A DNA stretch of 64,000 bases from Cellulophaga baltica (GTDB taxonomy: Bacteria > Bacteroidota > Bacteroidia > Flavobacteriales > Flavobacteriaceae), in the NCBI RefSeq assembly GCF_018861125.1, contig NZ_JAHKQN010000020.1, positions 33,920 through 97,919 of the forward strand, given 5' to 3'. Under the pieces are notes generated by a model, which saw only the letters and a list, made by a program, of their open reading frames with translations, was not told where the DNA came from and did not search any database. Shown here piece after piece: positions 48,945 to 57,927 of this stretch. The position numbers and the translations under genes were made by a program. The first letter of the stretch is position 1. Every line of letters begins with the position of its first letter.

Positions 48945-49766
48945 TTAAAATCGTGCTTTTAATTCATTTGCCATTTGTTCTTGTAATTTTTTAGCACTTG
49001 CTTTGGCTGCTTCAGCAAAATTTCCCTCATTTGAGGAATAAATGATTCCTCTTGAAGAATTTACAAGTAAACCAACGGTATCAGTCATACCATATTTAGA
49101 TACTTCAGTTAAGCTTCCACCTTGCGCACCAACACCCGGAACTAAAAGAAAACTATTTGGAACAATTGCTCTTATATCTTCTAAAAAAGTAGCCTTTGTC
49201 GCTCCCACTACATACATTAAGTTATCAGCATTCTCATACGTCTTAGAAGTCTCCAATACTTGTTTATAAAGTTCTTTTCCATCAACCTCTTTTGTTTGAA
49301 AATCAAATGCTCCTTGATTTGATGTTAGAGCCAATAGTATTGTATGTTTATTTTTAAAAGCTAAAAAAGGTTCCACAGAATCTTTACCCATATAAGGTGC
49401 TATAGTAACAGAATCAAAACCTAGGTCCTCAAAAAATGCTTTTGCATACATTGTTGATGTATTGCCTATATCACCACGTTTAGCATCAGCAATGGTATAC
49501 AAATCTGGATAATTTGTATTTAAATATTGAATTGTTTTTTCTAATGCTTGCCACCCTTTTATCCCATAGGCTTCATAAAAAGCGGTATTAGGCTTATATG
49601 CAACGCAGTGCTCGTGCGTAGCGTCAATAATGGCTTTATTAAAAGCAAAAATAGGATCTTCCTCTTCTAATAAATGTTTAGGAATTTTATTTAAGTCTAC
49701 ATCTAACCCTACACATAAAAAAGATTGTTTTTTATGAATTTGTGCTACTAACTGCTCTGTGGTCAT
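48945..49766 (-). CDS. pyrF: Orotidine 5'-phosphate decarboxylase
   Basis: A 273-residue TIM-barrel enzyme making UMP from OMP. It is the longer subfamily-2 form: [14 protein letters not shown] at the N-terminus, [20 protein letters not shown] (about 88-107, catalytic Lys/Asp pair), [15 protein letters not shown] and [12 protein letters not shown] with a late RGIIYSS. It lies 44 bp downstream of prfA on the same strand and is probably co-transcribed with it. Confidence 0.96.
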
Positions 49767-49810: not shown

Positions 49811-50887
49811 TTAAAAAATCTCAGAAGCTTCTTTCAGCTTTTCTGTATTTTCCACCAACATTAATTCATCAATAATTTTTTGAATATCACCATTCATAAT
49901 ATTTGGCAAATCATATAATGTAAAACCTATTCTATGATCTGTAACCCTACCTTGTGCATAGTTATACGTTCTAATTTTAGCTGAACGGTCACCACTACTT
50001 ACTTGCGAACTACGTTTAGCAGCATCTTCTTCTTGCTTTTTCGCTAACTCTTGATCGTATAAACGAGAACGCAATACTCTAAATGCTTTTTCTTTATTTT
50101 TATGTTGAGACTTTTGATCTTGACATTGTGCAACTAACCCTGTTGGAACGTGTGTTAAACGCACCGCAGAATATGTTGTGTTTACCGATTGACCACCAGG
50201 ACCTGAAGAACAGAAAAAATCTATTCTTACATCTTTAGGATCTATTTGCACATCAAAATCTTCTGCTTCTGGCAAAACCATTACGGTTGCTGCACTTGTA
50301 TGCACACGACCTTGGGTTTCTGTTTGTGGTACACGCTGTACACGGTGTACACCTGCTTCAAATTTTAAAGTACCGTAAACATCTTCACCCGTTACTTCAA
50401 ATTGAATTTCTTTATAACCACCACTTGTACCTTCACTTAAATCTATAACGTTGGTTTTCCAACCTTTAGATTCGCAATACTTAGTATACATACGGTGTAA
50501 ATCTCCTGCAAAAATACTTGCTTCATCTCCACCAGTTCCTGCACGCACCTCAACAACCACATTCTTAGAATCTTCAGGGTCTTTTGGTATCAGCAGTAGT
50601 TTAATCTCTTCTTCTAGTTCTGGTATTGCTGATTTAGCTTCATCTAGTTGCATTTTGGCCATTTCGACCATCTCAGCATCACTACCATCGGTTATAATCT
50701 CTTGAGCTTCTTCTATATTGTTAGTGTACTCAATGTATATATCTCTTTTCTTTACAAGGTTACTTAAATCCTTATATTCTTTATTTAGCTGTACATAACG
50801 TTTTTGATCTGCAATCACATCAGGTTGAATAATCAAATCTGATACCTCATCAAAACGTTGTTTTACTATATTTAATTTATCTAACAT
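49811..50887 (-). CDS. prfA: Peptide chain release factor 1
   Basis: A 358-residue class I release factor reading UAA and UAG. The GGQ motif that triggers peptidyl-tRNA hydrolysis is in [19 protein letters not shown] (about 228-246), the codon-recognition region follows [17 protein letters not shown], and the N-terminal helical domain and C-terminal [14 protein letters not shown] segment are normal. No frameshift or truncation. First gene of prfA-pyrF. Confidence 0.97.
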
Positions 50888-50989: not shown

Positions 50990-52261
50990 TTAACGAACAA
51001 AAGTAGTTCCAAAACTGAAAATATAGGAATCTAAACCATCATTTCGGTCATATTTACTGAACCTAAAATCAATAATTTTTAAACCAAAGGTCAGTAATTT
51101 AGCAGTTGTAAATATGTCTTTATATCTAATTCCTAATCCATATTGGTGTGCATTAAAATTCGACAAATCATAATCCGAAGTGTAATAATCTGATGTAGAG
51201 AGTGCTACTTCTTTTGGGTAAAAATAATCAGAAGCTGATTGTGTATAAAACCTGTAATTAGGGTACAGTGTAAATAAGCTTCCTAATTTAACAGGCACTT
51301 CAACACTTGCTGTATGTGCACTAACCCCCCAATCATCTGTGTAATAACGATAATAACTTTTTATAATAAAAGTATCACTCAAATAATAGTTTAAGCGACC
51401 ACCAATTGGCAATTTAAATCGAGAATCTGGCAACTGTTCTACATTGTCTGCTAACTGAAAATCATCAATAAAAAAATCATCAACATTGGCAAAATATACT
51501 CTCTGAAAAGGTGTACTCAACAACCCATTTTGGGTAACAAAATCAACGGATATAGACCCTTGTAAGCGTTTGCTTAAAATTTGCGAAAAACCTAAAGACA
51601 ATGAATACGTGTTTCTGTTTTCATTATCAAATACGACAAAAATCGGACTATATGTACCTTCTCCTTCTATTCTGCTATCAAAAAAACCATTTTTTAGTTC
51701 CACTGGGTATTGCGGATTCCATTTATCTAAATACACTTTTATATTTGCTGATAGTTCTGTGTTTTTCTGATTAAACAAATAAGAATAACCACCACCGAAA
51801 CCTATAGAAGAATAATCATATTCTTTAGAAAAATAAGCATTTACGTTCCATATTTTATTTCGATTGTCTGAACTATGTTGGTATGTCGGGTTCACATAAG
51901 TTAAAACATCTGATTGAGATGCTCCCGATGACGCTATATAAGATGAAACTGTTGTTGAAAAATCACCATCTAATGGATTTATATTGCTTGAAGATGCTGA
52001 TGAATATGCCGAAACACCTACATCAACGGTTAAAACATCATCTTCATTTATAGGTAAACGGACTATAAGGGAAGCTGTAGTGTCATCTAATTCCTCTGTT
52101 CCTTCACCACCTGTAACTGCCGCATGTTCTCCATCTTGATTGTAATAACTAAACAATGCATCAATTTCTGTAGCTTCTAAAACACGTTTTTTATACGTAG
52201 TGTCTTGAGCTACAACTAAAAATGAAACTAATAAAAAAATTATAAAAAGTATTTTTTTCAA
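50990..52261 (-). CDS. DUF3570 outer-membrane beta-barrel protein
   Basis: A 423-residue exported protein (signal ILFIIFLLVSFLVVAQ). The body is beta-strand-rich with a C-terminal strand ending FSFGTTFVR, as in outer-membrane barrels; the DUF3570 pattern includes TEIDALFSYYNQDGEHAAVTGG near residues 31-52 and YFYPKEVALSTSDYYTSDY. SYIASSGASQSD at 107-118 has a [ST]-G-A-[ST] string reminiscent of flavinylation sites (see findings). It is last in the Rieske-thioredoxin-ApbE-DUF4266-DUF3570 operon, 36 bp after DUF4266. Function unknown. Confidence 0.87.
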   Translation of the reverse strand: MKKILFIIFLLVSFLVVAQDTTYKKRVLEATEIDALFSYYNQDGEHAAVTGGEGTEELDDTTASLIVRLPINEDDVLTVDVGVSAYSSASSSNINPLDGDFSTTVSSYIASSGASQSDVLTYVNPTYQHSSDNRNKIWNVNAYFSKEYDYSSIGFGGGYSYLFNQKNTELSANIKVYLDKWNPQYPVELKNGFFDSRIEGEGTYSPIFVVFDNENRNTYSLSLGFSQILSKRLQGSISVDFVTQNGLLSTPFQRVYFANVDDFFIDDFQLADNVEQLPDSRFKLPIGGRLNYYLSDTFIIKSYYRYYTDDWGVSAHTASVEVPVKLGSLFTLYPNYRFYTQSASDYFYPKEVALSTSDYYTSDYDLSNFNAHQYGLGIRYKDIFTTAKLLTFGLKIIDFRFSKYDRNDGLDSYIFSFGTTFVR

Positions 52262-52297
52262 AAGAAATCTTTTTCTGAATTGTCTATTTAATATTTT

Positions 52298-52507
52298 TTA
52301 ATTACAACCGCAACCGCCACCTGTTTTACCTCCGTTTGCACCAGCCGAAGCTTCTCGATACACTTGAAAATTAGTTTCAGAGCGTTCTATATTCTTTGCA
52401 GAAAGTAACATATCATCATCATTTAAATATACTTTATCATATTGTTTAACAGCTACACATGATGTACTACTAACAACTAATAATAGTATATATAACAACT
52501 TTTTCAT
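52298..52507 (-). CDS. DUF4266 small lipoprotein with GCGCN tail
   Basis: A 69-residue protein. After the lipoprotein signal (YILLLVVSSTSC) comes a short body (KQYDKVYLNDDDMLL) ending in the Gly-rich GGKTGGGCGCN, the DUF4266 hallmark with two C-terminal cysteines. I start at ATG 52507 (MKKLLYILL), the signal-peptide start, 10 bp after the ApbE stop; an upstream in-frame ATG (52564) would lie inside ApbE. The conserved CGC tail may hold a metal, a thiol switch or a modification. Function unknown. Confidence 0.85.
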   Translation of the reverse strand: MKKLLYILLLVVSSTSCVAVKQYDKVYLNDDDMLLSAKNIERSETNFQVYREASAGANGGKTGGGCGCN

Positions 52508-52517
52508 TGACTTAAAA

Positions 52518-53513
52518 TTACTGATTTTTAGTGAATTCAATACCTTCACTTTTATGAATTTCATTATTTGAATCTACAATTATAACATCAACGCCTTTTA
52601 ATTGATTAATAAACGACAAACCAGTGTCTTTTCCCATTATAAATACTGCTGTTGCTAAAGCATCACATAACTCCGCGCTTTTTGAAAAAATAGTAACACT
52701 GTTGATTCCTTTTGAAGGGTATCCTGTTCTTGGATCAATGATATGAGAATATTTCTCTCCTTTACATAGTATAAATTTCTCGTAATTACCTGATGTTGCA
52801 ACAGAAGAATCCATAATTGGCAACCAAGAAAACACTTTTTCTTTGTCTAAAGGATTTGAAATTCCTACTATCCATTTTTCGCCACTAGCCTGTTTTCCCC
52901 AAGCAGATAAGTCCCCAGATGCATTTATAATACCCGCAAAAATATTTTTTGATTTCATCAAAGCTTTTGCTTTATCAGCCGCATAGCCCTTACCAATAGC
53001 ACCAAAGCCAATCTTTACACCTTTATTTTTCAAAAAAACAGTAGATGCCTCTTTATCTAAAACAATATTTTTATAGCCAACTTTTTTTACGGATTGTTCC
53101 ATTTCTAAAGCAGTAGGAATGTTTTTCATAGTACCGTCAAACTTCCAAATTTTATCCATTGATGCGTAAGTAATATCAAAAGCACCATCTGAAATTTCAG
53201 AAATCTTAATTGCTCTCTCTATCAAACTTATTAACTCAGCACTGACTTTTACAGGTTTAATCCCTGCATTTTTATTAATTTTTGAAGTTTCAGAATCGGA
53301 ATCCCAAGAAGATATTATTTTTTCAATTCTATTAATTTCAGCAACAGCTTCTAGAATATGTTTATTTGCTTTTTCTTCGGAAGTATCAACAATAGTAATA
53401 TCAAACCTTGAACCCATTAACTTCATGGATTTCATTACAGTAACATACTTATTTTGTTGGCTATAGCTGGTGAACGACAAAATAAATACAATCAGGGGGA
53501 TAATTTTCTTCAA
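52518..53513 (-). CDS. apbE: FAD:protein FMN transferase (ApbE)
   Basis: A 331-residue exported enzyme (signal IIPLIVFILSFTSYSQ) that links FMN covalently to Thr or Ser of target proteins outside the cytoplasm. ApbE landmarks are MGSRFDITIVD, ISSWDSDSETSKINKNAG, IINASGDLSAWG, the SYSHIIDPRTGYPSKG metal-site region (Asp-containing) and the late LCDALATAVFIMG. Length is normal. It overlaps thioredoxin by 4 bp and is 10 bp from DUF4266. Its target must be elsewhere or among its neighbours; no RnfG/NqrC is in the window. Confidence 0.94.
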   Translation of the reverse strand: MKKIIPLIVFILSFTSYSQQNKYVTVMKSMKLMGSRFDITIVDTSEEKANKHILEAVAEINRIEKIISSWDSDSETSKINKNAGIKPVKVSAELISLIERAIKISEISDGAFDITYASMDKIWKFDGTMKNIPTALEMEQSVKKVGYKNIVLDKEASTVFLKNKGVKIGFGAIGKGYAADKAKALMKSKNIFAGIINASGDLSAWGKQASGEKWIVGISNPLDKEKVFSWLPIMDSSVATSGNYEKFILCKGEKYSHIIDPRTGYPSKGINSVTIFSKSAELCDALATAVFIMGKDTGLSFINQLKGVDVIIVDSNNEIHKSEGIEFTKNQ

Positions 53514-53944
53514 TCTATAAATGCATTTAAGATTGCAATATAGTCTTTAGGAATTACTTTTATATACCCCGTTTCTCCTAAAAATTCATTTTCTGAATTT
53601 AAAACCACAACTAATGGGTAATACCCTTTTGTATTGTATTTTTCTGCTAAAGCTTTGTTTACGTCCAATAAATCTTCAGGAAGTTGATTTACTTTTTTTC
53701 TTGGAAAATCTGCTTTATATAACGAATAATGCTTTTCTGCATAAACAACAAATTCTTCTGATTGCCATATTTTTCTATCTAATTTAATGCACGGAGCGCA
53801 CCAATCTGAACCAGAAAAAACAAGAATTAAAGACTTATTATTTTCTTTAGCATCAACAACTGCATCATTGTAAGTTTTATGCCAATTTTGACTGCTTACA
53901 ATATTTATTAAAAAAAGAAATATGATTGCGATTATATTTTTCAT
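53510..53944 (-). CDS. Secreted thioredoxin-fold protein
   Basis: A 144-residue exported protein (signal NIIAIIFLFLINIVSSQ) with a thioredoxin fold and active site SDWCAPCIKL, followed by KIWQSEEFVVYAEKHYSLYKADFPR, the layout of DUF255/thioredoxin-like oxidoreductases. It probably reduces disulfides in the periplasm. I start at ATG 53944 (MKNIIAIIF), which begins the signal peptide. It overlaps apbE by 4 bp and lies 36 bp after the Rieske gene. Confidence 0.92.
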   Translation of the reverse strand: MKNIIAIIFLFLINIVSSQNWHKTYNDAVVDAKENNKSLILVFSGSDWCAPCIKLDRKIWQSEEFVVYAEKHYSLYKADFPRKKVNQLPEDLLDVNKALAEKYNTKGYYPLVVVLNSENEFLGETGYIKVIPKDYIAILNAFID

Positions 53945-53980
53945 TTTTAAAGTACAGCGCATTTCAAACCTATTTGTTTC

Positions 53981-54436
53981 TTATTCAAAAACATGTAATA
54001 AATCTCCATCTAACAATTCTATATTGTATATAGTCAATGGCTTAGCTTCATTTTCGTCAACTTGATTTAATGGCGTACCATCTTGTGCAAATCGTGATCC
54101 GTGAACTGAGCAATAATAAAAAGCTTCTCCATCGTCTGTAACAAAACGGACATCTTCATTAGCTTCGTGACTACAAATTTGCGTAGCAGCAACATAGTCC
54201 CCTTCTAAATTTCGGGCTACTACTACCAAGTTCTTAAGAATAAAACCACCGTTATCAGCTAAATTTGAAGCTTCTTCTGAATTTAAGTCTATAGTAAAAT
54301 CAATATTAGTTGGTGTTTCAACTTCATCATCAATCGTACTATCTCCACTATCAGAAGAACAACCGTGTAAACAAGGGAAACTTACTGCAAATGCAGCACT
54401 TGCCCCTATTGTTTTTAAAAATGCTTTTCTATTCAT
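53981..54436 (-). CDS. Rieske 2Fe-2S lipoprotein
   Basis: A 151-residue exported protein. The N-terminus (MNRKAFLKTIGASAAFAVSF) resembles a Tat signal, although only one Arg is present, and a lipobox-like LHGC follows (Cys26). The Rieske cluster ligands are CSHE and, 17 residues later, YYCSVHGSRF, in one small domain (about 65-150). Such proteins pass single electrons. It heads the five-gene redox run, and its start codon is immediately downstream of a hairpin at 54438-54465. It lies 41 bp downstream of purM. Confidence 0.92.
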   Translation of the reverse strand: MNRKAFLKTIGASAAFAVSFPCLHGCSSDSGDSTIDDEVETPTNIDFTIDLNSEEASNLADNGGFILKNLVVVARNLEGDYVAATQICSHEANEDVRFVTDDGEAFYYCSVHGSRFAQDGTPLNQVDENEAKPLTIYNIELLDGDLLHVFE

Positions 54437-54477: not shown

Positions 54478-55656
54478 TTAGTATGTGAAAGTACCGTATT
54501 CGCTATTAATTGTAAGCTTTTTAGTAGATGCATCCTCTACCCTACCAATAATTTGGCCTTTTACGTTAAAGCTTGTTGCTATTTTTATAATATCTGAAGC
54601 CACAGCTTCATTTACATAAAACTCTAAACGGTGACCACAATTAAACACTTGGTACATTTCTTTCCAATCTGTTTTTGATTGTTCTTGTATTAACTTGAAC
54701 AATGGTGGCACATCAAATAGATTATCTTTTATAATGTGTAAATCTTCAACAAAGTGTAATATTTTGGTCTGCGCACCACCACTACAGTGTACCATACCGT
54801 GAATATCATCTGAATTAAATTTACTTAATACCTTTTTTACTATTGGCGCATAGGTTCTTGTTGGTGACAATACCAATTTACCTGCATCAATAGGTGAGTT
54901 TTCAACAGCATCAGTCAATTTTATATTACCAGAATACACTAAATCTTCAGGAACCTCAGCATCAAAACTTTCGGGGTATTTATCTGCTAAATATTTTGAG
55001 AAAACATCATGGCGAGCAGAAGTTAAACCGTTACTTCCCATACCGCCATTATACTCTTTTTCATAGGTAGCTTGACCAAATGATTCTAAACCAACTATAA
55101 CATCACCAGCTTTAATCTTTGCATTATCAATAACATCGGTTCTTTTTAAACGTGCTGTTACGGTAGAATCTACAATAATAGTACGTACCAAATCACCAAC
55201 ATCAGCAGTTTCACCTCCTGTTGAACGAATTGTAATTCCGTGATCATTTAAATCAGAAATCAATTCCTCTGTACCATTAATAATTGCAGAAAGCACTTCT
55301 CCTGGAATTTTATTTTTATTTCTACCAATAGTAGAAGAAAGCATAATATTATCTGTAGCACCTACACATATTAAATCATCAATATTCATAATAAGTGCAT
55401 CTTGTGCAATGCCTTTCCAAACAGAAACATCTCCTGTTTCTTTCCAATACATGTATGCTAAAGAAGATTTTGTTCCTGCACCATCTGCATGCATTACCAA
55501 ACAATAGTCATCATCATTCGTTAAATAATCTGGCACTATTTTACAGAAAGCTTGAGGAAATAATCCTTTGTCAATATTCTTAATGGCATTATGCACATCT
55601 TCCTTTGACGCAGAAACACCTCTTTGATTATACCTTTCACTATTTGATGAACTCAT
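54478..55656 (-). CDS. purM: Phosphoribosylformylglycinamidine cyclo-ligase
   Basis: A 392-residue AIR synthetase (purine step 5), ATP-dependent ring closure of FGAM. Landmarks are HADGAGTKSSLAYMYWKETGD, MNIDDLICVGATDNIML, STGGETADVGDLVRT, VGLESFGQATYEKEYNGGMGSNG and HCSGGAQTKILHF. The length is longer than E. coli PurM and typical of Bacteroidota. I start at ATG 55656 (MSSSNSERYNQRGVSASKED); 12 more in-frame codons upstream are unlikely because the -7 element lies there. Separated from glnN by a terminator. Confidence 0.93.
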   Translation of the reverse strand: MSSSNSERYNQRGVSASKEDVHNAIKNIDKGLFPQAFCKIVPDYLTNDDDYCLVMHADGAGTKSSLAYMYWKETGDVSVWKGIAQDALIMNIDDLICVGATDNIMLSSTIGRNKNKIPGEVLSAIINGTEELISDLNDHGITIRSTGGETADVGDLVRTIIVDSTVTARLKRTDVIDNAKIKAGDVIVGLESFGQATYEKEYNGGMGSNGLTSARHDVFSKYLADKYPESFDAEVPEDLVYSGNIKLTDAVENSPIDAGKLVLSPTRTYAPIVKKVLSKFNSDDIHGMVHCSGGAQTKILHFVEDLHIIKDNLFDVPPLFKLIQEQSKTDWKEMYQVFNCGHRLEFYVNEAVASDIIKIATSFNVKGQIIGRVEDASTKKLTINSEYGTFTY

Positions 55657-55674
55657 TGAAATCTTGATTTTGCA

Positions 55675-55682
55675 CAAAAATA
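55675..55682 (-). promoter_or_regulatory. -7 element of the purM promoter
   Basis: The minus strand reads TATTTTTG, matching TAnnTTTG, 18 bp before the purM start chosen here. No purine riboswitch was seen. Confidence 0.55.
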
Positions 55683-55694
55683 GTAGAATCATTA

Positions 55695-55740: not shown

Positions 55741-57927
55741 TTATTTTTGGAATAATAGTTCTCTATACTTCGTTAATGGCCAAAGTCTATCATCCATTAA
55801 CCTTTCTAGTCTATCGCAATGCGATCTTATTTGATCAAAATAAGGTTTTACATTATCGCAGTATGCAAAAGCTTTTTTATTAACGTCTTTTAAACTATTT
55901 GCACTTCTACGCGCATCAATCATTAAATCAGTTAATTTTTTTAATGCTACAATATGTTCTGCAATTTGTTCTATAATTGATAATTGACCGTCTGATAATT
56001 TTTTATGAGCAGCACCATATATATCTTTTAAACCCATCACATTTTTAATTAACTCGTTTTGGTAATCAATTGCTGTTGGAATAATATAGCTATACACCAA
56101 CTCATTATACACTCTACCTTCTATTTGAATTTGAAAAATGTAGGTTTCTAAATCAACTTCTTTTCGAGCCGCTATTTCAACTTCACTCATTACTTTCATA
56201 GACTTAAACAAAGCGATGCTTTCTTTAGCTGTCATTATTTGCAATGCACTAGGTGTATTTTTATTATTACTCAGTTTTCTACGTACAGCTTCATTTTCCC
56301 ATTCTTTACTATAACCATCACCATCAAAACGAATTCTTTTTGAAGTCTTAATGTATTCACGTAAAACATTAAATACAGCCTCATCTTTTTTAAGACTCTT
56401 TTTATCTATAAGTACATCAACTTCTTTTTTAAAGTCTTGTAATTGTTTGGCTACAATTGTATTTAAAACCGTCATTGGTTTTGCACAATTTGTTTTTGCA
56501 CCAACACCACGCATTTCAAATTTATTACCTGTAAATGCAAAAGGAGAAGTTCTATTCCTATCTGTATTATCTAATAATATTTCAGGTATTTTACCCACAA
56601 CATTAAGTTTAAGCTGGGTTTTTTCTTGTGGTGATAATTTTCCTTTTGAAACTCCTTCTAATTCATCTAAAACATTGCTTAATTGAGAACCTACAAATAT
56701 TGAAAATATGGCTGGTGGAGCTTCATTTGCGCCCAACCTATGATCATTACTTGCTGAAGCTATTGATGAACGCATTAGTTCTTCATAATTATCAACCGCC
56801 TTTATCGTATTAATAAAAAAAGTTAAAAACTGAAGGTTTTTCATTGGTGTTGAACCAGGACTTAAAAGGTTAACCCCTGTATTTGTTGCTAAAGACCAGT
56901 TATTATGTTTACCTGAACCATTTATACCTGCAAATGGCTTTTCATGAAAAAGAACTTTAAAACTATGTTTATCAGCAATTTTATCCATCACATCCATCAA
57001 TAACAGATTATGATCTACCGCTAAATTTGCCTCTTCAAAAATTGGCGCTAATTCAAATTGATTAGGCGCAACCTCATTGTGTCTTGTTTTTACAGGAATA
57101 CCTAATTTAGTACATTCCTTTTCAAGATCACTCATAAAGCTCAAAACACGATCAGGAATCACTCCAAAATAATGGTCATCTAACTGTTGACCTTTAGCTG
57201 CTTTATTCCCAATTAACGTACGACCAGTCATTACAATGTCAGGTCTTGAAAAAGCCAATGCTTTATCTAACAAAAAATATTCTTGTTCCCAACCTAATGT
57301 TGCACTAACCTTAGATACATTTTTATCAAAATATTTAGCTACCGCAGTCGCTGCTTCATCAACAGCATTTAATGCTCTTAAAAGCGGAGCCTTATTATCT
57401 AAAGCCTCGCCTGTATAAGACACAAATATTGTGGGTATACATAATGTTGTACCATAAATAAAAGCTGGTGAAGTAGGATCCCAAGCAGTATAACCACGAG
57501 CCTCAAAAGTATTTCTAATACCTCCACTAGGGAAACTTGAGGCATCAGGTTCTTGTTGCACTAATTGTCCACCACCAAATTTTTCTAAAGCTCTACCATC
57601 AGGTAATAAATCAAAAAAAGCATCATGCTTTTCTGCTGTTGCCCCAGTTAAAGGTTGAAACCAATGAGTATAATGTGTTGCTCCCATTGTTATTGCCCAA
57701 GCCTTCATAGATTCAGCAACTTGATCTGCTATTTTTCTATCAATTTTAGAACCTGAAAACATTGCACTTTCTACACTCTCTAAAGCATCTTTAGTAAGGT
57801 ATTGCAACATTCTTTCTTTATTAAATACATTAACTGCAAAAAGTTCAGAACGTCTCCCTTTTTCCTCTATCGTTATACGCTCTCTCTGATAACTTTTTGA
57901 GATAGCATCGAATCTTATATTAGTCAT
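55741..57927 (-). CDS. glnN: Glutamine synthetase type III
   Basis: A 728-residue GSIII, the long form found in Bacteroidota and some cyanobacteria. The N-terminal domain includes THYTHWFQPLTGATAEKHDAF, the catalytic core reads LGWEQEYFLLDKALAF, then GKHNNWSLATNTGVNLL and DNYEELMRSSIASASNDHRLGANEAPPA. The unique long C-terminal helical domain (about 600-728) ends LWPLTKYRELLFQ. It condenses glutamate and ammonia. It faces the second glutamine synthetase across a shared 210-bp region. Confidence 0.96.
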   Translation of the reverse strand: MTNIRFDAISKSYQRERITIEEKGRRSELFAVNVFNKERMLQYLTKDALESVESAMFSGSKIDRKIADQVAESMKAWAITMGATHYTHWFQPLTGATAEKHDAFFDLLPDGRALEKFGGGQLVQQEPDASSFPSGGIRNTFEARGYTAWDPTSPAFIYGTTLCIPTIFVSYTGEALDNKAPLLRALNAVDEAATAVAKYFDKNVSKVSATLGWEQEYFLLDKALAFSRPDIVMTGRTLIGNKAAKGQQLDDHYFGVIPDRVLSFMSDLEKECTKLGIPVKTRHNEVAPNQFELAPIFEEANLAVDHNLLLMDVMDKIADKHSFKVLFHEKPFAGINGSGKHNNWSLATNTGVNLLSPGSTPMKNLQFLTFFINTIKAVDNYEELMRSSIASASNDHRLGANEAPPAIFSIFVGSQLSNVLDELEGVSKGKLSPQEKTQLKLNVVGKIPEILLDNTDRNRTSPFAFTGNKFEMRGVGAKTNCAKPMTVLNTIVAKQLQDFKKEVDVLIDKKSLKKDEAVFNVLREYIKTSKRIRFDGDGYSKEWENEAVRRKLSNNKNTPSALQIMTAKESIALFKSMKVMSEVEIAARKEVDLETYIFQIQIEGRVYNELVYSYIIPTAIDYQNELIKNVMGLKDIYGAAHKKLSDGQLSIIEQIAEHIVALKKLTDLMIDARRSANSLKDVNKKAFAYCDNVKPYFDQIRSHCDRLERLMDDRLWPLTKYRELLFQK

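Follow-up and report, generated by a model that had tools for sequence, protein, structure and literature searches.

The 64,000-nucleotide window analysed here, from contig NZ_JAHKQN010000020.1 of Cellulophaga baltica, contains a cluster of five minus-strand genes encoding a Rieske lipoprotein, an exported thioredoxin, the flavin transferase ApbE, a DUF4266 lipoprotein and a DUF3570 outer-membrane barrel. It is close to certain that the last four genes, called the core below, belong to a published class of flavinylation clusters (Meheust et al. 2021, eLife, PMC8238504). The Rieske gene is separable from the core and is probably an accessory with a further role outside the module. The best explanation for the whole, which is judged probable, is that the core is a Flavobacteriaceae member of the DsbD/DUF3570 system, forming an envelope electron route for metal redox chemistry with the Rieske protein as accessory. 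Its basis is the flavinylation of a DUF3570 homologue elsewhere and, in the present material, linkage, retained acceptor and thiol residues, ApbE decay and Rieske separability. New here are the optional Rieske gene, which is often found beside the cluster and is able to outlive it, and the metal signs in related clusters.

Organization of the cluster

All five genes are present in the order, strand and spacing described in the initial annotation. Its gaps of 36, -4, 10 and 36 bp hold when the second Met (53944) is taken as the thioredoxin start and 52507 as that of DUF4266, and the export signals that it assigned to all five genes are visible by eye, as are lipobox-like cysteines in the Rieske and DUF4266 proteins. 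The four core genes adjoin one another on the same strand and exceed their Pfam cut-offs. The genome has a size of 3.9 Mb, with the cluster on contig C18, and the closest named relatives by DUF3570 are Cellulophaga, with 73 and 71% identity. The features are as follows.

53981-54436, minus strand: Rieske [2Fe-2S] lipoprotein (PF00355, E 1.4e-5, 25.3 bits, cut-off 20.3)
54173-54175, 54167-54169, 54110-54112 and 54101-54103, minus strand: Rieske ligands C88, H90, C109 and H112
53510-53962, probable start 53944, minus strand: DsbH-like exported thioredoxin (PF13899, Thioredoxin_7, E 4.8e-12, 46.3 bits)
53789-53803, minus strand: WCAPC motif of the thioredoxin
52518-53513, minus strand: ApbE flavin transferase (PF02424, E 1.8e-84, 283.9 bits)
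52298-52507, open reading frame (ORF) open to 52564, minus strand: DUF4266 lipoprotein (PF14086, E 1.7e-17, 64.5 bits, cut-off 27)
52304-52312, minus strand: CGC motif of DUF4266
50990-52261, TTG start, minus strand: DUF3570 outer-membrane barrel, putative ApbE substrate (PF12094, E 1.2e-41, 143 bits)
51992-52003, minus strand: putative flavinylation site 1, SSAS, with Ser90 (51992-51994) as probable acceptor
51917-51928, minus strand: putative flavinylation site 2, SGAS, with Ser115 (51917-51919) as probable acceptor

Conservation of the core

The main text of PMC8238504 reports 285 flavinylation clusters with DsbD, among which DUF3570 occurs in 227, the PF13899 thioredoxin in 183 and DUF4266 in 221, and 316 clusters of ApbE, DUF3570, thioredoxin and DUF4266 without adjoining DsbD; the core of the present finding is therefore already published. 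These clusters, which carry ApbE and thioredoxin with or without DsbD, overtake the statement of the initial annotation that no described function was known for DUF4266 or DUF3570. DsbD input was suggested for some bacteria and the C-terminal CXC of DUF4266 was regarded as possibly redox-active, while the function of the clusters was called uncertain, so that the acceptor and the wiring were left open. PMC8238504 is the sole open-licence PubMed Central paper found that names DUF4266, DUF3570 or their Pfam accessions. The word Rieske is absent from its main text, its supplementary tables possibly listing Rieske neighbours, and from the main text of a 2025 review of ApbE (PMC12052999); DsbD and thioredoxin are not mentioned in the available text of PMC11334425 (2024). 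No open-licence PubMed Central paper combining Rieske with flavinylation and ApbE was found in a search that had the eLife supplementary tables outside its range.

Among 395 genomes drawn from the phylum, 113 contain DUF4266. A 60-locus set combined all 54 DUF4266 places outside f18, a family that is over-represented, with six f18 places (the window was not counted). Linkage was scored for genes no more than 7 kb away and on the same strand by a recount with hidden Markov models (HMMs). DUF3570 is linked in 59/60 loci, ApbE in 56/60, a PF13899-type thioredoxin in 45/60 and Rieske in 11/60; the corresponding counts outside f18 are 53, 52, 45 and 11 of 54. The grouping of DUF4266, DUF3570, ApbE and thioredoxin is beyond chance. 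The thioredoxin HMM was built from rows shorter than 200 residues. Neighbour clustering gave 55/60 for ApbE and 48/60 for the thioredoxin fold; it admitted AhpC/TSA-like redoxins of f18 and missed fused ApbEs, and the HMM recount was used. The initial annotation regarded the five genes as a single pathway and expected DUF4266 and DUF3570 to be usually accompanied by ApbE, thioredoxin and Rieske genes, which stands for ApbE and thioredoxin and fails for Rieske.

A second set was found by DUF3570 and comprises the best 80 of at least 571 loci encoding a relative. All four core genes occur in 73 of these 80; L117 is truncated where its contig stops, and little DNA is available upstream in L138, L139 and L157. 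The gene order varies in places: ApbE follows DUF3570 in the f16 and f35 loci that were mapped and in some of those of family f18. A single f18 locus carries four DUF3570 genes (L090:3457-11734), and the f18 cluster genes include Ig-like Big_5 or SWM-repeat proteins (L090:3457-11734; L089:10839-12551). At L080:7056-7760 and L084:7213-7884, and also in L081 and L085, DUF3570 and ApbE are separated by the gene of a NusG_II-domain protein whose start looks like an export signal.

DUF3570 as the probable substrate of ApbE

The substrate of the cluster ApbE is most likely DUF3570 and not DUF4266, because DUF3570 of Chlorobium luteolum was flavinylated at two sites in PMC8238504. This occurred upon co-expression with its own ApbE in E. 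coli, and the serines of both [S/T]GA[S/T] motifs had to be replaced to abolish flavinylation. The presumed acceptors Ser90 and Ser115 are both kept in 82/82 aligned DUF3570 rows (alignments A1 and A2, the latter with 62 rows). The proposal in the initial annotation that the small DUF4266 protein is matured is thereby displaced, and its broader view of an envelope redox module with ApbE flavinylation and DUF3570 as a plausible end point is supported. More distant DUF3570 proteins outside A1 and A2 lack site 2 in L065, L071 and some f18 loci, or site 1 in L082 and L083. DUF4266 was tried as the flavinylated protein and rejected, since its tail reads SGAN, AGAN or VGAN, with no acceptor Ser or Thr after GA and no fixed one before. 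The acceptor in ApbE motifs is the last Ser (PMC12052999). SSAS as a flavinylation site is plausible but unproven, since replacement of the motif Gly by Ala halves flavinylation and replacement of Asp by Ala hardly matters (PMC12052999). Against solved structures, the cluster ApbE yields ApbE matches from E 2.6e-49. The window genome contains a single DUF3570 and one other ApbE, the location of which, about 3.3 kb from the only FMN_bind gene, is consistent with the cluster ApbE serving DUF3570.

A sequence search detected no related solved structure for DUF3570, the one match (E 0.068) being a protein of another kind. A 16-strand model, which is a hypothesis because it was drawn by hand, would have outer loops of 16, 29, 2, 36, 36, 4, 27 and 9 residues and inner turns of 2-6 residues. 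Such a model would fit an outer-membrane barrel, with an even number of strands, long outer loops and short inner turns. Its outer loops would contain 26 of the 46 invariant residues and its turns would contain none, with both flavin sites in outer loop 2, which would have the flavins facing outward. As for the attachment step, DUF3570 in PMC8238504 was mostly in the pellet and was flavinylated even though purified denatured, which suggests that ApbE accepts the unfolded chain; a periplasmic enzyme could then label a loop that later faces outward.

Thioredoxin, DUF4266 and DsbD

The thiol residues of the core are retained. The thioredoxin keeps WC.PC in 84/84 rows, and its best matches are structure 2ju5 (E 7.9e-16) and the NCBIfam DsbH model (81.3 bits, under the cut-off of 190). 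DUF4266, with a mature peptide of about 50 residues, has CGC at its C-terminus in 93/93 ORFs of the phylum sample (that of the window included) and in 79/79 of the 80-locus set. It ends in GGGCGCN in 84/84 rows of the same-locus and 80-locus sets, preceded by an almost unchanged YRE...GANGG, and beyond CXC the last 20 residues (52301-52360) are nearly fixed among relatives. The conservation of this tail exceeds the need of a plain thiol relay. The window genome encodes one DsbD_TM gene, on contig C4 and unlinked to the cluster. By coordinates, DsbD lies within about 5 kb of DUF4266 in 5/6 genomes of family f18, the domain having been checked in L086.

Separability of the Rieske gene

The Rieske protein of the window contains the ligand motifs CxH and CxxH as CSH and CSVH. 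R3 and F6 of its RK-x-F start are invariant in a 24-row alignment, and this start is presumably Tat-like (twin-arginine translocation). Rieske was also tried as an ApbE substrate and rejected, as no [S/T]GA[S/T] is seen by eye outside the signal region in the 24-row alignment. In the 60-locus set, Rieske immediately precedes the thioredoxin in 10 of its 11 loci; in the eleventh, L066, it precedes a 504-residue ApbE and no thioredoxin was called. The Rieske homologue beside the module at L066:6814-7311 has SPNH in place of CxxH, so that one Cys ligand is lost. The 80-locus set has Rieske upstream on the same strand in 37 loci; the simple five-gene order is seen in 36 of these, and L170 has an additional Rieske at another position. 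Counted over both sets, four families carry Rieske immediately before the core. In family f3, each of the six loci (L070-L075) has a cytochrome b561 near the cluster, and five have Rieske; the cytochrome may be an inner-membrane partner.

A Rieske profile built from 24 rows (A3) was run against 199 Flavobacteriaceae genomes, 76 of which contain DUF4266. It matches 68 genomes at E <= 0.001 and exceeds 150 bits at 31 places in 29 genomes; by coordinates, 15 of these strong places (the window included) are within 3 kb of DUF4266 and 16 are farther away. The 16 unlinked loci and four weaker ones were fetched, and 15 of the 16 (all except L181) occupy the same spot as in the window, between the following genes, although L191 shows the AIRS and glutamine synthetase-like side alone.

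54478-55692: AIRS/PurM-like gene (PF00586/PF02769), upstream flank
49811-50887: RF-1 gene (prfA), downstream flank

Farther out lie what are presumably a glutamine synthetase-like gene (55741-57927) and a pyrF-like gene (48945-49766); the flanking genes look ordinary. The 15 loci at this spot show three states, namely Rieske-thioredoxin-ApbE (4), Rieske-ApbE (8) and Rieske alone (3), and DUF4266 and DUF3570 are missing there in every one. Seven of their genomes have no DUF3570 at all, and eight have DUF3570 elsewhere with ApbE adjoining. All four Rieske ligands (CHCH) are intact in 55/55 rows of the same-locus set.

ApbE behaves differently at these loci. Decay was scored as the number of differing residues at positions with at least 97% identity among full loci, each row being omitted from its own reference. 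The eight Rieske-ApbE loci break a median of 23 (8-74) of about 128 ApbE positions, compared with 1 (0-8) in 37 full loci (8 versus 38 rows, Mann-Whitney p 5e-6, rows not independent), and fixed motifs are hit, as in the change of SVATSGNYEKF to SVAITGTQERY in L187. In the same eight loci, the median number of broken positions is 1 of 41 for Rieske, 2.5 of 262 for PrfA and 3.5 of 108 for the AIRS-like protein; the maxima of these controls among full loci (88; 210 and 115) were traced to short ORFs in L146, L125 and L096. ApbE is mostly intact in the four Rieske-thioredoxin-ApbE loci, with a median of 2.5 broken positions and 13 in L180. In L189, ApbE matches occur as fragments only, beside an intact Rieske, in a genome without DUF3570. 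Because ApbE mostly decays without DUF4266 and DUF3570 while the Rieske ligands stay intact, the cluster ApbE is read as serving DUF4266/DUF3570 and Rieske as probably not depending on them. Loci lacking DUF4266 and DUF3570 thereby give evolutionary support, independent of biochemistry, for ApbE working for both proteins and for Rieske as a separable accessory.

The history of the cluster was approached with two trees. A quick tree of the four flanking genes from 52 loci gives 6 changes for DUF4266, 6 for DUF3570, 4 for thioredoxin, 3 for ApbE and 1 for Rieske, which are minimum events and not rates because the loci were picked for DUF3570 or for unlinked Rieske; gain and loss are indistinguishable on this tree. 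A tree of ApbE and DUF3570 from 69 loci (48 of the phylum sample including the window and 21 picked from the 80-locus set, with f16, f18, f20 and f35 left out) requires at least 7 changes of Rieske presence (20 rows), of which starred branches force 6. Since the adjacency of Rieske to the core recurs in f3, f9 and f10 and in genus f1g2, the preferred reading is that the ancestor would have had all five genes in this order and that some were lost later.

That adjacency bears on two other views of the Rieske gene. It might stand next to the module through chance and synteny alone, being transcribed together with the AIRS/PurM-like gene in Flavobacteriaceae but functionally unlinked to the module, and the clade of the window indeed keeps Rieske between the AIRS-like gene and prfA whatever the other genes do. 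Same-strand adjacency with other flanks in f3, f9, f10 and f1g2 speaks against this view, which is considered unlikely. Conversely, the five genes might form one obligatory pathway, in which Rieske swaps single electrons with the DUF3570 flavins and the Rieske-only loci are vanishing relics. The position directly upstream in four families, with differing flanks and repeated state changes on the core tree, suggests a real functional tie; however, the rarity of Rieske among DUF4266 loci, together with the four ligands kept in 15 same-spot genomes where DUF4266 and DUF3570 are missing and ApbE is mostly decaying, renders an obligatory pathway improbable.

Proposed electron route and metal-gene context

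For the reading preferred here, namely a DsbD/DUF3570 core with Rieske as accessory, we infer the order of electron flow, the flavin position and a metal acceptor as follows. DsbD, encoded elsewhere in the genome, would reduce the exported thioredoxin, which would in turn reduce the Cys-Gly-Cys at the C-terminus of DUF4266. This lipoprotein would hand electrons to two flavin mononucleotides (FMNs) on the DUF3570 barrel, from which they could pass to an acceptor located at the outer membrane or outside it, with metal ions as the likeliest candidate. ApbE would act as the maturation enzyme, fixing the FMNs probably before barrel insertion, and the Rieske lipoprotein would be an accessory one-electron carrier in several lineages, also with a partner outside the module.

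The metal acceptor is suggested by recurrent non-core neighbours. VIT1, found within 25 clusters in PMC8238504, accompanies 13 loci of the 60-locus set in five families. Response regulators of the OmpR type and histidine kinases occur in 14 loci each, in families f1 and f3, a CusA/CzcA pump of the resistance-nodulation-division (RND) type in 10, an adaptor protein in 5 and cytochrome b561 in 6 (f3 only). The CusA/CzcA neighbours exceed the curated cut-off (TIGR00914), and the regulator and kinase are nearest to the CopR and CopS models, below cut-off. Among 57 genomes searched for VIT1, 33 have a full VIT1; in 19 of them, from five families and seven genera, it is no more than 11 kb from DUF4266 (no more than 3 kb in 12), compared with about 0.23 expected at random. 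The 80-locus set contains 7 regulators, 6 kinases, 8 RND pumps and 5 adaptors in lineages other than that of the window; CusA/CzcA and CopRS-like genes recur in these relatives and are not found beside the copy in the window. L196 and L198 of genus f1g2 have the order DUF3570, regulator, kinase, 1444-residue RND pump, adaptor and VIT1. At L196:1988-10703 and L198:1221-9562, the cluster thus runs on into a CopRS-like pair, a CusA/CzcA pump, a CusB-like adaptor and VIT1. The VIT1 at L196:9585-10703 has about 150 extra N-terminal residues with no Pfam match at E 0.001, and at L199:3101-3562 a protein with a haem-binding domain (PF14376) is encoded between DUF3570 and VIT1. The VIT1, CusA/CzcA and CopRS-like neighbours turn the published description of the function as uncertain into a testable metal-redox hypothesis.

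Several observations weigh against this proposal. As regards metals, 11 of the 19 linked VIT1 cases come from one genus, 14 of the 33 VIT1 genomes have no VIT1 near DUF4266, and the 11 kb limit was set after the data were seen, 12/33 being linked at 3 kb; no VIT1 was found in the window genome or in the 80-locus set. As regards the barrel, the amphipathicity script is unstable, giving 11-24 strands and placing the flavin sites after strand 2, 3 or 4 depending on the setting, so that the outward position of the flavins can only be suggested. DsbD_TM occurs in 57/57 genomes with DUF4266 and also in 10/14 control genomes, and its presence therefore proves little. As regards decay, the Rieske-ApbE loci are not independent, one of them (L183) breaks 8 ApbE positions, the same number as the window, and Rieske in the four loci that retain thioredoxin and ApbE is somewhat more divergent than in full loci (median 4.5 of 41, p 0.012) while ApbE there is mostly intact, a combination that no simple rule fits.

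Thiol repair or disulfide reduction for envelope proteins, with the DUF3570 flavins as a side branch or sensor and metals as incidental, would suit the DsbH-type affinity of the thioredoxin and the common role of DsbD in feeding thiol repair (PMC8238504), but it does not account for the two flavins fixed on a barrel of the outer membrane, the recurrent neighbours are metal genes, and no thiol-repair gene is among the recurrent neighbour clusters listed, part of which are annotated; it is improbable.

The preferred electron route can be extended into a more specific picture, which is tentative and, taken as a whole, doubtful. DUF3570 would be a haem-free outer-membrane conduit, its FMNs attached to the unfolded chain, borne on conserved outer loops and recharged from DsbD via thioredoxin and the thread-like CGC tail of DUF4266. 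Bacteroidota might thus possess a thiol-to-flavin pathway for metal reduction at the surface, to which Rieske would couple a one-electron envelope pool in several lineages.

Comparison with known systems

The closest relatives of the cluster are the DsbD/DUF3570 clusters of PMC8238504, with which it shares ApbE, DUF3570, a PF13899 thioredoxin, DUF4266 with a C-terminal CXC and a genome-encoded DsbD. Unlike the clusters described in the main text of that paper, it is headed by a Rieske lipoprotein, and its site 1 (SSAS) departs from the published [S/T]GA[S/T], which site 2 fits. Its DsbD is unlinked, unlike in the DsbD-linked clusters; this does not exclude membership, because PMC8238504 assigns 316 clusters that lack an adjoining DsbD to the same class. 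The thioredoxin resembles the DsbH disulfide reductase in its exported thioredoxin fold, its WCAPC motif and its best matches, and differs in scoring below the curated cut-off of that family. The genes around FMN_bind and the second ApbE presumably encode Na+-NQR, which, in the same genome, also uses covalent FMN attached by ApbE in the envelope (NqrC with its own ApbE). In contrast to the cluster, Na+-NQR is an inner-membrane complex with an FMN_bind domain and no barrel. Mtr-type porin-cytochrome conduits combine a barrel with multihaem cytochromes to carry electrons to the outer membrane. The cluster is not a member of this group; if the preferred reading is right, it would share with Mtr-type conduits the barrel-borne passage of electrons to the outer membrane, with the place of the multihaem cytochromes taken by flavins bound covalently to the barrel and by a small lipoprotein that bears the CGC motif.

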